DNA of 64,000 nucleotides, taken from positions 1,922,001-1,986,000 of the forward strand of contig NZ_CP043869.1 in assembly GCF_008630635.1 (NCBI RefSeq). The letters are read 5' to 3'. Both the position numbers and the translations under genes were made by a program. Positions within the stretch are counted from its first letter, which is position 1, and every line of letters starts with the position of its first letter. Shown piece after piece: positions 20,746 to 25,709 of this stretch. The DNA comes from Neptunomonas concharum. GTDB lineage: Bacteria > Pseudomonadota > Gammaproteobacteria > Pseudomonadales > Balneatricaceae. The notes under the pieces were generated by a model. It worked only from the letters and a program-made list of their open reading frames with translations, searched no databases and was not told where the DNA came from.

Positions 20746-21915
20746 ATGGATGAGCCTATCGTTCAAGAATCGACTACCCAGCCATTTAAATTCACTGGTA
20801 ATGGCCGTGAGTATTTCAAAATCTGGATTGTTAATATACTACTCTCCATTGTTACGCTAGGTATCTATTCTGCTTGGGCAAAAGTTCGCACGAATCGTTA
20901 TTTTTACGGTAACACATTCTTCAATGATGCAAACTTTGAATACCACGCCACTGGCTGGCAGATCTTTAAAGGGCGCATTATCGCTGCCATTGCTCTGCTC
21001 ATTTATGTTGCAGTAAGTGAGCTATTCCCTCAGGTCGGCTTCGGCTTGATGTTAATTATATTGCTTGCCACTCCGTGGATCATTTGGAACAGCTACCGCT
21101 TTAATGCTCGTATAACCAGCTATCGACAAGTCCGCTTTTCATTTGATGGCTCGTTAAGCAACGCCTATAAATACATGTTGTTATTACCTTTTTTACCTGC
21201 AGTCGCTATCGGGTTAATCGCTGGTACAACTTGGCTGCTGTTTGGCATGAATAGCATTATGGCAGTCTTCATTTTAGCCGCCCTCGCAATGATCAGCATC
21301 TATGCAATGGGGCCCTATGTACAGGCGCTCATGTACCGATACCGTTGGAACAACGCCCATTACGGACAGGGCGACTTTAGTGCCAATATAAGTATCAGCG
21401 TGTTTTTTAAAACCTACCTCTTCATCCTAGGGATCTTTTTATTATTTGCTGCAATTATTGCCGCTATAGGTTATGCAGCAGGAGCCGGGGCGATGATATC
21501 CGCTCAGAAAGAAGCAGGTACAGAACCAGGGCTGTTCAATATCTTTTTTCTGGTTGGTTACCTGTTTACACTTATGTTTAGTTTTTGGGCTAAAGCCTAC
21601 ATGGAGACACGTATTAATAACCATGTTTTTAACGAGTTGAAACTCGATAACGTACTTAACTTGCACTCCAATCTTCAAGTTAAACCGCTGTTTTGGATTC
21701 ATATAACAAATTTATTCCTGATTATTTTCACGCTCGGTTTAGCCATACCTTTTGCTAAAGTACGCTTAGCCAACTATCGCGCAGACTCAACATCGGGCAC
21801 GATAACTCAAGATCTAGCGCACTATGCAAGCTTACAACAACAGAAACAGTCTGCTTTAGGTGATGAACTAGGTGAAGCTTTTGATCTCCAAGGTGACTTA
21901 GGTATCAGCCTTTGA
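20746..21915 (+). CDS. DUF898 (YjgN family) membrane protein
   Basis: A 389-residue polytopic inner-membrane protein with about seven to eight hydrophobic segments. The YjgN signature appears twice: FTGNGREYFKIWIVNILLSI with TLGIYSAWAKVRTNRYFYG near the N-terminus, and HITNLFLIIFTLGLAIPFAKVR near the C-terminus, showing an internal duplication. The function of the family is unknown. The stop overlaps the start of the M48 protease gene (TTGA overlap at 21912-21915), so the two are translationally coupled and probably act together. Confidence 0.88.
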   Translation: MDEPIVQESTTQPFKFTGNGREYFKIWIVNILLSIVTLGIYSAWAKVRTNRYFYGNTFFNDANFEYHATGWQIFKGRIIAAIALLIYVAVSELFPQVGFGLMLIILLATPWIIWNSYRFNARITSYRQVRFSFDGSLSNAYKYMLLLPFLPAVAIGLIAGTTWLLFGMNSIMAVFILAALAMISIYAMGPYVQALMYRYRWNNAHYGQGDFSANISISVFFKTYLFILGIFLLFAAIIAAIGYAAGAGAMISAQKEAGTEPGLFNIFFLVGYLFTLMFSFWAKAYMETRINNHVFNELKLDNVLNLHSNLQVKPLFWIHITNLFLIIFTLGLAIPFAKVRLANYRADSTSGTITQDLAHYASLQQQKQSALGDELGEAFDLQGDLGISL

Positions 21916-22937
21916 TTTCTGGTTATTACTATCCCGCCAATCAGTCAGCCCGCTCGCGGGCTGACATTCACATCGAAGGTAGCCGATACACATTGATCCG
22001 CGCTGATGGTAAACCCTTACATGGGGATATTAGTGACCTCGATATTAGCAACCGAGTTGGGAATATTACTCGTCGTATTACCTTTCCTGACGGTACTCTG
22101 TTAGAGACTCATGATAACGAAGCGATTGATACATGGATTAAGTCCGCCGGCCAACCTCGAAACCTTTGGCTTCACACATTAGAGACGAATCTGTCTTTAA
22201 TCATCTTTTCTATTGTATTTGTGGTGACACTGACTCTTAGCTTCATTAAATGGGGCATACCCGCCATAAGTTATCAAGTTGCTCACGCACTCCCCGCCGA
22301 GCTGAGCATAGCGATTGGGGAACATAGTATAGCGGTGCTCGACTCCACACTCTTCACCCCTTCATCATTATCTGAAGAACAACAAGCCTCAATACGAAGC
22401 GAGATAACAAGCACACTTCTTAATCGGGTTGATATAGATATCCCTATCAAGTTCCATTTTCGTACGATGGAAAATAGCAACGGTCCTATCGCTAATGCAT
22501 TCGCACTACCCTCAGGCGATATTTTTGTTACGGATAAACTGGTGGAGCAGTTAGACCAACCTAATGAGCTTAACAGTGTCATTTTGCATGAAATTGGTCA
22601 TATCAAGCACCGCCATGGTCTACAACATGTCATACGCTCCTCAACCATCGCCTTACTGACCGTATTTATCGTGGGTGATAATTTATCGTTCGGCCAAGAC
22701 CTCATCGTTGCTTTCCCTACATTTTTAACGCAGCAAGGTTATTCACGAAAAGCAGAAGAGGAAGCGGACGAGTACGCTCTAGAGCATATGTTAAAACTAG
22801 GATTAGACACAGAAGCCTTTGCAACAGCGCTAGAAAAAATTATTCCAGACGCAGCGAAAACAAAAAACAGTGGCAACGTATATTTATCAACGCACCCTGA
22901 TACCCGAAAGCGAATAGAAGCCGCTAGGAAGTATTAG
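21912..22937 (+). CDS. M48 family metallopeptidase, membrane-anchored
   Basis: A 341-residue zinc protease. An N-terminal soluble domain (1-90) is followed by one clear membrane segment (about 95-117, LSLIIFSIVFVVTLTLSFI). The M48 domain has the zinc motif HEIGH at 226-230 and the third ligand region EEEADEYALEHM. The start is a TTG at 21912 that overlaps the upstream TGA; no in-frame ATG occurs before the protease domain is reached, and a weak TTAGGT lies upstream. Like other M48 proteins it may act in envelope quality control. The pairing with the DUF898 protein suggests a shared job. Confidence 0.88.
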   Translation: MISGYYYPANQSARSRADIHIEGSRYTLIRADGKPLHGDISDLDISNRVGNITRRITFPDGTLLETHDNEAIDTWIKSAGQPRNLWLHTLETNLSLIIFSIVFVVTLTLSFIKWGIPAISYQVAHALPAELSIAIGEHSIAVLDSTLFTPSSLSEEQQASIRSEITSTLLNRVDIDIPIKFHFRTMENSNGPIANAFALPSGDIFVTDKLVEQLDQPNELNSVILHEIGHIKHRHGLQHVIRSSTIALLTVFIVGDNLSFGQDLIVAFPTFLTQQGYSRKAEEEADEYALEHMLKLGLDTEAFATALEKIIPDAAKTKNSGNVYLSTHPDTRKRIEAARKY

Positions 22938-23023: not shown

Positions 23024-23165
23024 TATAATCGCTACCGTTTACTCACTATGAGTATGTCCTAAGGGGTGGCAGTGCTATCTATTAGCCTGGCCTGAGATGC
23101 ACATGATGTGCGAACCCTCTGAACCTGATCCGGATGATACCGGCGTAGGAATAGGAACGATTACA
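23024..23165 (+). ncRNA. TPP (thiamine pyrophosphate) riboswitch, THI element
   Basis: The conserved parts of the aptamer are in order: GGGGTGGC at about 23063-23070, CTGAGATGC at about 23092-23100, GAACCCTCTGAACCTGAT and the GGATGATACCGGCGTAGGAA stretch ending at about 23150. The aptamer proper is about 23058-23152. A TATAAT at 23024-23029 is a likely -10 box. The RNA precedes a TonB-dependent receptor. Downstream, a hairpin covers the ribosome-binding site, so control is probably at translation: TPP bound means OFF. The aptamer call rests on its strongly conserved sequence; the mode is inferred. Confidence 0.95.
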
Positions 23166-23192
23166 AGCCTACTTTTCCCGCTACTCAACCGG

Positions 23193-23217
23193 GTCTCCAA
23201 GCATTATTATCGGAGAC
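23193..23217 (+). promoter_or_regulatory. ribosome-binding-site-sequestering hairpin of the TPP riboswitch
   Basis: GTCTCC (23193-23198) pairs with GGAGAC (23212-23217), and the second arm contains the GGAG that serves the ATG at 23222. There is no T tract, so this is not a terminator. It is a likely expression platform for the upstream TPP aptamer. Confidence 0.7.
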
Positions 23218-23221
23218 TTGT

Positions 23222-25318
23222 ATGCACTTTACGTTAAACCCGCTCTATCCATCTGTCTTGGCAATGGCTGTGCTTACTGCTAATGAGTCCGTGGCTACTA
23301 ATAGATCAATGAATAACGACTTACCTGTCATTTACATCACCTCAGGCGTCCGAGGTGCGGCATTGAATCAAGTCCCTGCTAGCCTGACTGCCGTGAATCA
23401 AGAAACCTTACAAAAACAACCCACATCACATACCGAAGCAATGCCCTCACTTGCGCCAAACGTCAACAGCAGTCATGGCGCATCCCGAGCACGCTTTTTC
23501 CAGATCCGTGGCATTGGCGAGCGTAGCCAGTTTATCGGGCCGGTTAACCCATCCGTCGGCGTGACGATGGATGGCATAGATATGAGTAATATCGGAGCGG
23601 CAGCAACACTGATGGATGCTCAGCAAGTGGAAATACTTCGTGGACCGCAAGGCACCTTGTATGGTGCTAACGCTCTAGCAGGACTCATTCATATTCGCTC
23701 TAACGATCCAACGACGAAGACTCAAGGTCGAGTAGAAACGACGCTAGCGACCTATAATACCCGCAGCCTAACAGCGGCTGTAGGCGGCCCAGTAAATGAG
23801 AACGTGGGGTATCGAGTAGCGATACAAAGCAACCGTAGTGACGGTTTTATGGAGAACGACTATCTCGATAAAAGTCACACTAACAATATCGATGAGACAT
23901 TTTTGCGCGGCAAGCTACGCATTCAAGCTAACGATCACCACATGCTCGATTTAACTGGCTTTTATGCCGATGTTGATAACGGTTACGATGCCTTTTCGCT
24001 AGATAACAATCGTCACACATTATCTGACCAGCCTGGGCATGACCGCCTAGAATCATCAGCCCTTGCGCTGAAATCAACCTGGACAGGACACAACGCATTT
24101 ACGCTGGAAACCAGCCTTAGTCACTCCTCAGCTGATCAGGAGTATGGCTACGATGAGGACTGGGCCTATCCTTTCTTTTTTACCAACCCGGATGACCCAA
24201 CCGAGGATTGGGGTTACAACTGGTTTGATAACTACAAAAGGGATATCTCTACAACAACAGCGGAGATGCGTTTCATTTCTGCTCCCGGTGCTGAGCTGTT
24301 TAATGGAACAACCGATTGGGTAACCGGCGTTTATTATTATCATCGAGAGACTGATCTGCTTCGCCAGCGCACCGACAATGCAGATTTTAATAGCGATTAC
24401 ACAACTTCACGTTTTGCAGTATATGGTCAGTTAGAATCACGCTTATCAGATGTTTTACGTCTAACCTCAGGATTACGCTTTGAGCAAAGCGAGTTTGATT
24501 ATAGCGACAGCGACAGCGTGACATCCGATGAAGACGACCTACTCGCTGGCGGACGCTTAGCACTTGAGTATTTAGCGAATCAAAACCGTACCTATTACGC
24601 GCTTGTCTCTGCTGGCTACAAAGTAGGCGGCGTTAATGCAGACACAAATTTACCCGAGGAGCAGCGCGCTTTTGAAACAGAGTCGTTGTGGAACTATGAA
24701 GTAGGCGCTAAGAGCAACCTGCTCGATAATCGTTTGCAGACACAAGTTGCACTATTTTATCAACGCAGAAATGATGCTCAGATCAAAGGCTACCGCACGA
24801 TATCTATGCCGAGCGGTGGCACCAGTTTTATCGACTATATCGATAATACGGATCAAGCCTACAGCTATGGTCTTGAAGCTGAAGCACAGTGGCAGGTTAC
24901 GCCAGCCATTAACCTGTTCGGCGGCTTAGGTTTACTGGAAACCCAACTAAACGATTCTGGCGCTGCTTTCGACGGCCGCGATTCTGCACAATCACCGAGC
25001 TATCAGTTTATGCTAGGTGCTGCCTTTAAGCATAGCCAGCATTGGTTCTCGGGCATTGAAGTAGAAGGCAAGGATGAGTTCTATTTCTCTGATAGCCACA
25101 ACCAGCGCTCCGATAGCTATACATTGGTTAATGCACATATCGGTTACCAAACGCCAGACTGGAGCATTCGTCTTTGGGGCCGCAACTTAACCAATGAGCA
25201 TTATGCCGTGCGTGGTTTCTACTTCGGAAACGACCCTAGAATCGATTGGGCAGAGACTCAATATACTCAGCTTGGCTCACCCCGCCAGATCGGTATTACT
25301 GCAGCAGTGAATTTTTAA
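23222..25318 (+). CDS. TonB-dependent receptor, probable thiamine (or precursor) outer-membrane transporter
   Basis: A 698-residue outer-membrane receptor. A short signal peptide (about 1-26) is followed by a possible TonB box (VIYIT near 35-39), a plug domain (about 45-155, with FFQIRGIGERSQ and VEILRGPQGTLYGANALAGLI) and a 22-strand barrel that ends in the usual C-terminal Phe (ITAAVNF). The TPP riboswitch directly upstream indicates that it is made when thiamine is scarce, so it likely imports thiamine, a thiamine phosphate or a precursor. No inner-membrane thiamine transporter gene lies beside it. Plug and barrel resemble many siderophore receptors, so the ligand is assigned by regulation alone. 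Confidence 0.9.
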   Translation: MHFTLNPLYPSVLAMAVLTANESVATNRSMNNDLPVIYITSGVRGAALNQVPASLTAVNQETLQKQPTSHTEAMPSLAPNVNSSHGASRARFFQIRGIGERSQFIGPVNPSVGVTMDGIDMSNIGAAATLMDAQQVEILRGPQGTLYGANALAGLIHIRSNDPTTKTQGRVETTLATYNTRSLTAAVGGPVNENVGYRVAIQSNRSDGFMENDYLDKSHTNNIDETFLRGKLRIQANDHHMLDLTGFYADVDNGYDAFSLDNNRHTLSDQPGHDRLESSALALKSTWTGHNAFTLETSLSHSSADQEYGYDEDWAYPFFFTNPDDPTEDWGYNWFDNYKRDISTTTAEMRFISAPGAELFNGTTDWVTGVYYYHRETDLLRQRTDNADFNSDYTTSRFAVYGQLESRLSDVLRLTSGLRFEQSEFDYSDSDSVTSDEDDLLAGGRLALEYLANQNRTYYALVSAGYKVGGVNADTNLPEEQRAFETESLWNYEVGAKSNLLDNRLQTQVALFYQRRNDAQIKGYRTISMPSGGTSFIDYIDNTDQAYSYGLEAEAQWQVTPAINLFGGLGLLETQLNDSGAAFDGRDSAQSPSYQFMLGAAFKHSQHWFSGIEVEGKDEFYFSDSHNQRSDSYTLVNAHIGYQTPDWSIRLWGRNLTNEHYAVRGFYFGNDPRIDWAETQYTQLGSPRQIGITAAVNF

Positions 25319-25382: not shown

Positions 25383-25709
25383 TTACTGTGCAAACTTATA
25401 ATATTCACGATTTAGATAGGCCGCCACATCAGAAACATCTTCAGGGAACCAGCCAACATCCAAATTCGTATTGCAACCTTCCACAAAGCTTTCTAACTTC
25501 GCATAGCTTGTTACTTTTCGCTCTTCACGTTGATAAAAAGCCGGTTGATGGCATGTATCGCAGTTGGCATCCGTATAGTGCTCGCCACGAATAGTTCTTT
25601 CCAGCTCAACCTCCTTGTACAGTGCTTCGCCATTATCTGCATCAGCCGCTTGTAACGCACTTACAGGCAACCCAACAATTAGTAATGAAGCCAGCAATAC
25701 CTTTTTCAT
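25383..25709 (-). CDS. small periplasmic c-type cytochrome without an axial Met, possibly SHP-like
   Basis: A 108-residue precursor with a clear signal peptide (about 1-21, MKKVLLASLLIVGLPVSALQ). One heme site CDTCH lies at 50-54. The mature protein has no methionine at all, so the usual His/Met ligation of class I cytochromes is excluded. Near the C-terminus it has FVEGCNTN (C79, N80), then PEDVSDVAAYLN, which resembles the Asn-ligand region of the sphaeroides heme protein SHP; a His44 ligand or an open site are alternatives. The gene follows dsbD by 40 bases on the same strand and is probably co-transcribed with it, which fits because DsbD supplies the reductant for cytochrome c assembly. 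Confidence 0.88.
   Translation of the reverse strand: MKKVLLASLLIVGLPVSALQAADADNGEALYKEVELERTIRGEHYTDANCDTCHQPAFYQREERKVTSYAKLESFVEGCNTNLDVGWFPEDVSDVAAYLNREYYKFAQ

Follow-up and report, generated by a model that had tools for sequence, protein, structure and literature searches.

What does a TPP riboswitch do in front of a TonB-dependent receptor gene that stands alone, and where does the cargo of such a receptor go once it has crossed the outer membrane? We addressed these questions for a locus of Neptunomonas concharum within a 64,000-nucleotide stretch of DNA, hereafter the window, for which we computed the aptamer, the adjoining hairpin, the conserved alternative pairings and the gene content. 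Our overall reading, which we consider likely, is that the riboswitch controls the translation of a TonB-dependent receptor for thiamine or a close derivative through a thiM-like lever, and that the cargo travels onward via the importer ThiBPQ. The argument refers to the following features.

23052–23168, plus strand: TPP riboswitch aptamer (THI element), paired part 23057–23156; RF00059, 74.5 bits
23057–23061, plus strand: 5′ strand of P1, whose partner is 23152–23156; from the Infernal alignment
23127–23133, plus strand: GATCCGG, a strand of aptamer P4/P5 and the proposed ligand-free anti-sequestor strand; complementary to 23189–23195, with folding of truncated transcripts as further basis
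23189–23195, plus strand: CCGGGTC, the putative lever, predicted to pair with 23127–23133 (ON) or, by its last five nucleotides, with the sequestor 3′ arm (OFF); CCGGNTC in 47 of 61 leaders
23191–23198, plus strand: sequestor hairpin 5′ arm, GGGTCTCC; base pairing maintained among relatives through compensating changes
23212–23219, plus strand: sequestor hairpin 3′ arm, GGAGACTT, with GGAG at 23212–23215; 6 nt before the ATG at 23222
23222–25318, plus strand: TonB-dependent outer-membrane receptor of 698 amino acids, a probable thiamine (B1) receptor; PF07715 Plug and PF00593 barrel domains, and the operon context of its orthologs

The match to the TPP riboswitch model RF00059 (Rfam/Infernal, E 7.7e-13) is full-length, covering model positions 1–105 of 105, and its score lies above the gathering score of 54.3 bits; in the Infernal alignment, 27 of 28 consensus pairs are standard. 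The complete THI element proposed in a first-pass annotation is thus upheld by the Infernal check suggested there, the score not being low, though its start had been placed at 23024, about 30 nt too early. A scan found no promoter-like site upstream of the aptamer and receptor. The folding energy of the leader is not unusual relative to shuffled sequence (z −0.29), so the argument depends on the covariance model and on what relatives show.

For this comparison, receptor orthologs were sought in whole genomes and found in 13 of 57 relatives, in 118 of 390 genomes of the order and in 22 of 369 genomes of the class, each count including the window's own genome. These searches provided loci from 12, 29 and 21 new genomes, respectively (62 in all), and a single-protein scan of genome contigs added only one more, the Pseudoalteromonas contig L017, bringing the set to 63. 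An aptamer is present at 60 of these 63 orthologous receptor loci (12/13 with L017, 20/20, 20/20 and 8/10 in successive sets); 88 order-level receptor genomes had no locus from their own search, five of them had loci from the search among relatives, and 83 therefore lie outside this count. The three misses are L114, L017, where the receptor gene is part of a thi operon, and L115, whose receptor match lacks residues 1–247 and stops at a contig end.

Ahead of the receptor start codon, GGGUCUCC (23191–23198) pairs with GGAGACUU (23212–23219) in a hairpin of eight pairs, two of them G-U, built around a six-pair GTCTCC/GGAGAC core. The ribosome-binding site GGAG lies inside its 3′ arm. The masking hairpin described in the first-pass annotation is therefore present and extends beyond the core seen there, and among orthologous leaders it is kept by compensating changes. 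An intrinsic terminator was rejected, as the terminator scan found no terminator-like site on the plus strand between the aptamer and the ATG – a result that fits translational control. We conclude that the TPP riboswitch upstream of the receptor is real and that it very probably shuts off translation when vitamin B1 is sufficient.

The linker between aptamer and start codon contains CCGGGTC, some 32 nt after P1. We searched 61 leaders (60 orthologs and the window) for CCGGNTC up to 170 nt from the aptamer match and found it in the linker of 47, compared with 5% of shuffled leaders; it is absent from the remaining 14. Together with the aptamer at 60 of 63 loci, this frequency argues against a chance origin. 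The last five bases of the motif and the next two pair with the arm preceding the start codon at 6 or more of 7 positions in 46 of the 47 leaders, and at all seven in 28. These 3′ arms were picked as best matches, a choice that favours pairing, so controls matter: shuffled sequence gave seven pairs in 5% of cases and at least six in 55%. Across the 46 distinct hairpins, pairing is seen in 93.8% of cells, compared with 30–63% when slid by one to three bases and 91.4% when the 3′ arms were dealt anew among leaders, with 93.8% reached in 0 of 2000 deals. The variable N of the motif pairs in 87% of leaders against 70% after dealing anew, a value likewise reached in 0 of 2000 deals; at this position, the 47 leaders have G-C (34), A-T (3), T-A (3) or G-T (1), with six unpaired.

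CCGGNTC is also complementary to GATCCGG in the P4/P5 arm of the aptamer, which includes 23130–23133/23140–23143. In leaders with CCGGTTC, the other P5 strand reads GAACCGG in three of three cases, compared with 0 of the 58 others; the three are related, belonging to one family, and the complementarity of linker and aptamer has been kept in them. Five leaders that lack CCGGNTC (L096, L097, L099, L101 and L107) have a linker CCTGT(C) that is complementary, by eye, to GGGACAGG near the aptamer 3′ end, and this looks like another switch design within the one receptor family.

When truncated window transcripts were folded, aptamer P5 had a probability of 1.0 at 23160 and 0.85 at 23185. In a transcript ending at 23196, with CCGGGUC just out, the anti-sequestor pairing had a probability of 1.0 and the aptamer 0, and at 23222 the sequestor competed again, giving a decision stretch of about 40 nt along the growing transcript. 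The anti-sequestor probability exceeds 0.8 in 33 of the 47 motif-bearing leaders, the window included; L087, L093 and L094 were mismeasured in this set of leader calculations, the 3′ P5 strand having been taken, and were scored as misses.

The alternative pairing that would exclude the sequestor, strongly predicted in these truncated transcripts, is not so predicted at full-length equilibrium. GGAG is there unpaired with a probability of 0.04 in the free state and 0.00 with the aptamer locked, and in only 2 of 47 leaders does its opening differ by more than 0.2 between the two states. In the unconstrained minimum free energy fold, four bases of the lever, CCGG, pair with the aptamer while the six-pair core of the sequestor still forms. 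Folding with and without an aptamer constraint, as the first-pass annotation had proposed, thus did not open the ribosome-binding site in the unconstrained state; its idea of translational control by TPP is backed by the masked site and its conservation, and the equilibrium folds, which leave the site paired either way, count against it. Because the free fold (−50.4) lies below the aptamer-bound fold (−41.1), binding must win kinetically, and with GGAG paired in both equilibrium states the response to ligand must be kinetic or need ribosome competition. We infer ligand dependence and kinetic control from the rival pairing predicted to arise in the growing transcript.

We propose that, without TPP, newly transcribed CCGGGUC would pair with the aptamer strand GAUCCGG, breaking the aptamer and occupying the sequestor 5′ arm, and ribosomes would start at 23222. 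With TPP, the aptamer would retain GAUCCGG in its own P4/P5 helix and the freed linker arm would pair with GGAGACUU, blocking initiation. In E. coli thiM, as outlined in excerpts of PMC3280964, stabilisation of the aptamer by ligand allows a sequestor to mask the ribosome-binding site, a competing fold forms in the ligand-free state, and kinetic control has been proposed. The aptamer, sequestor, competing fold and decision stretch of the window leader appear, by analogy, to follow a similar scheme. The window differs from the thiM scheme as described there in its competing strand, which is the P4/P5 strand GAUCCGG acting with a linker copy, CCGGGUC.

The riboswitch might instead act mainly on transcription, for example by Rho-dependent termination exposed when translation is off, with the hairpin being secondary. 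Some proteobacterial TPP riboswitches combine transcriptional and translational levels, E. coli thiC among them, and equilibrium folding of our leaders does not separate two states at the ribosome-binding site. We nevertheless consider this explanation quite unlikely, given the lack of a plus-strand terminator-like site from aptamer to start codon and the pairing of the pre-start-codon arm with the lever, which is present in nearly all motif-bearing leaders and is kept through compensating changes. Translational control thus remains our preferred reading of the switch.

The receptor itself consists of a PF07715 Plug (60 bits) followed by a PF00593 barrel (104.5 bits), both over cut-off. The NCBIfam models that match it best are those for siderophore and haem receptors, and among PDB sequences only the pesticin receptor matches at E up to 1e-10 – as might be expected of an ordinary siderophore or metal receptor that stands behind a TPP riboswitch by chance. 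We regard such a coincidence as extremely improbable: all 22 NCBIfam matches fall below their cut-offs, which led us to reject a siderophore receptor function, and orthologs of the receptor have the aptamer at nearly every locus and PnuT beside 45 of 62.

Within the window, no inner-membrane transporter adjoins the receptor gene, as the first-pass annotation had stated. Upstream, at 20746–22937 on the plus strand, a DUF898 membrane protein is followed by an overlapping M48 peptidase with an N-terminal DUF7092 domain. Downstream are DsbD and, convergent with the receptor gene, a 108-amino-acid protein with a CxxCH haem-binding motif (25383–25709, minus strand), which has no Pfam match at E 0.001. 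We rejected all of these as partner genes.

In relatives, the receptor is linked to thiamine transport and synthesis genes, neighbours that the window copy is without. In 45 of 62 loci, one of the first three ORFs downstream of the receptor encodes PnuT on the same strand, and a small YkoF-like protein is similarly placed in 39; both are present in 36 loci, the YkoF-like protein alone in 3 and neither in 13, some of which are at contig ends. A thiamine-kinase-like gene lies beside the receptor in 6 of 62 loci. The flanks behind these counts are short, at 1.5 kb for 50 loci, and one locus (L105) had no assigned receptor ORF.

The YkoF-like protein, conserved and single-domain with about 85 amino acids, has its gene between those of the receptor and PnuT in 36 of the 62 loci, and relatives have 37 such ORFs of 75–105 amino acids. 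Its profile matches the Bacillus subtilis YkoF structures 1s7h/1s99 (E 3e-9), and at E up to 1, 16 of 18 members have a match to PF07615 and 16 of 18 to PF01910. The copy at L017 8270–8521 misses Pfam and NCBIfam cut-offs, though a profile finds YkoF structures. At this Pseudoalteromonas locus, the run of genes is thiC, a thiO-like oxidase, thiG, a thiD/thiE fusion, a thiF-like gene, the receptor, ykoF, pnuT and a thiamine-kinase-like gene; ThiC, ThiD, receptor, PnuT and kinase were named by searches and thiO, thiG, thiE and thiF by inspection.

The first-pass suggestion of a role in uptake of thiamine or a precursor is backed by this conservation and gene context, from which the cargo itself can be predicted. 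The TPP-controlled receptor might import a precursor or degradation product (HMP, thiazole or phosphorylated thiamine) rather than thiamine. TPP riboswitches also govern precursor salvage genes, the related genome G006 has a salvage-like cluster, and precursors could be of use to the window's organism, whose genome contains thiC and thiG. Such a cargo seems to us rather doubtful, as the PnuT, YkoF-like and, within short flanks, thiamine-kinase-like neighbours point to intact thiamine. The receptor is also over-represented where a genome has no ThiC match (75 of 118 receptor-bearing genomes versus 53 of the other 272 in the order), a bias that fits intact thiamine as well as HMP. We retain thiamine, or a close derivative, as the favoured cargo.

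We then considered the inner membrane. A scan of the window's genome (3.56 Mb, one contig) found three TPP riboswitches: that of the receptor, one preceding thiD-thiC, and one of 72.3 bits directly preceding a thiB-thiP-thiQ operon; thiG lies apart from these loci. ThiB is over its NCBIfam cut-off, and for ThiP and ThiQ the models of that name are the best matches, though below cut-off. PnuT (PF04973) has no match in this genome. At the two other riboswitches (G000:C1:2211448-2211545 and G000:C1:3116969-3117060), the start codon lies within the last 8–12 nt of the aptamer match, leaving no separate expression platform, so only the receptor has a long linker switch. Another genome of the genus has a fourth TPP riboswitch (L061, G006:C43:97000-107000) before thiD, a thiXYZ-like ABC importer, tenA, thiM and thiE; the cluster, named by inspection except for thiD, looks like a precursor-salvage operon.

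The first-pass annotation had left the import route blank. Although none adjoins the window receptor, candidates exist in ThiBPQ, whose genes lie at another locus of the genome behind a TPP riboswitch of their own, and, in relatives, in the PnuT gene right behind the receptor. The receptor would move its cargo over the outer membrane using TonB energy, and in N. concharum ThiBPQ would take it over the inner membrane. Most likely, the receptor imports thiamine and passes it on to ThiBPQ.

The phylogenetic distribution bears on this change of partner. Across the 390 genomes of the order, the receptor occurs in 118 and ThiB in 62, with both in only two (the window's own genome, G000, and G406) where 18.8 would be expected, a comparison that joins two listings taken to be of the same 390 genomes. 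Within the window's family, nine of nine receptor-bearing genomes examined have ThiB; in other families, ThiB is absent from five of five. PnuT is over cut-off in one of the nine family genomes (G029), with G002 and G007 at about 22 bits, below cut-off. Seven of eight genomes of the genus have ThiB, each with a TPP match just upstream, six over cut-off and one at 44.7 bits; G004 has ThiB without the receptor, and G003 has neither. These counts come from related genomes and do not represent independent events. In a midpoint-rooted tree of 61 receptor sequences, with L105, L111 and L115 left out, the Neptunomonas receptors group with that of G406 in one clade (0.999), which in turn falls with G015 and G029, the latter operon-bearing (0.999), amid receptors of the operon type. 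With the solo clade nested in this way, the solo state of the receptor looks derived.

On balance, we lean towards the view that, in this genus and one neighbouring genus, the receptor was uncoupled from an ancestral PnuT operon and re-paired with ThiBPQ, TPP riboswitches at two loci of the genus keeping receptor and importer in step, and that the receptor leaders of many gammaproteobacterial families have in common a lever that switches by means of the linker copy of the P4/P5 strand. To our knowledge, ThiBPQ has classically been described without a dedicated TonB receptor, and in the window's genome this thiamine ABC importer, with ThiB over cut-off, is under its own TPP riboswitch.

A comparative paper by Rodionov from 2002 reportedly lies behind the predictions of thiamin TonB-dependent receptors. 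Such receptors have been predicted from riboswitch control or PnuT linkage (PMC2771747, in part), and omr1, a putative thiamin TonB-dependent receptor, has been described close to TPP riboswitches in marine SAR86 and Flavobacteriales (PMC10881298, in part); our locus shares this arrangement of riboswitch and receptor, and the portions of both accounts consulted describe neither a switching mechanism nor a ThiBPQ pairing. OMthi (BT2390) of Bacteroides thetaiotaomicron is, according to excerpts of PMC5613172, a TPP-riboswitch-controlled TonB-dependent outer-membrane thiamine receptor, also covered in a review (PMC6977713, in part). Its deletion in a biosynthesis mutant raised the EC50 for thiamine from 2.8 to 15.8 nM, and the OMthi and PnuT operons showed no significant RNA-seq change with thiamine (PMC5613172, same excerpts). 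The window receptor, likewise TonB-dependent and behind a TPP riboswitch, was compared with OMthi by description rather than by the BT2390 sequence. It differs from OMthi, a Bacteroidota receptor with PnuT as partner, in standing alone in a genome where PnuT was not found and ThiBPQ is present. In Shewanella, pnuT has been annotated (PMC5955497, in part). The excerpts of these five sources (PMC5613172, PMC6977713, PMC10881298, PMC2771747 and PMC5955497) describe neither the conserved linker lever nor the pairing of receptor and ThiBPQ. TPP-controlled TonB thiamine receptors of the OMthi/Omr1 kind are thus already known, and the Neptunomonas receptor probably belongs among them; its different inner-membrane partner is the less expected part.

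Vitamin B1 is commonly regarded as crossing the outer membrane passively, and a widespread TPP-controlled receptor argues for active B1 uptake in such bacteria. In marine systems, B1 is scarce (PMC8552899, in part). The combination of aptamer and receptor may serve as a marker for active B1 uptake, and the linker lever offers a compact, conserved switch. In the solo-receptor genus, nature offers a way to test if a single receptor can work with two inner-membrane systems that are unrelated; if our reading is true, the receptor and ThiBPQ would be the B1 analogue of BtuB-BtuCDF.
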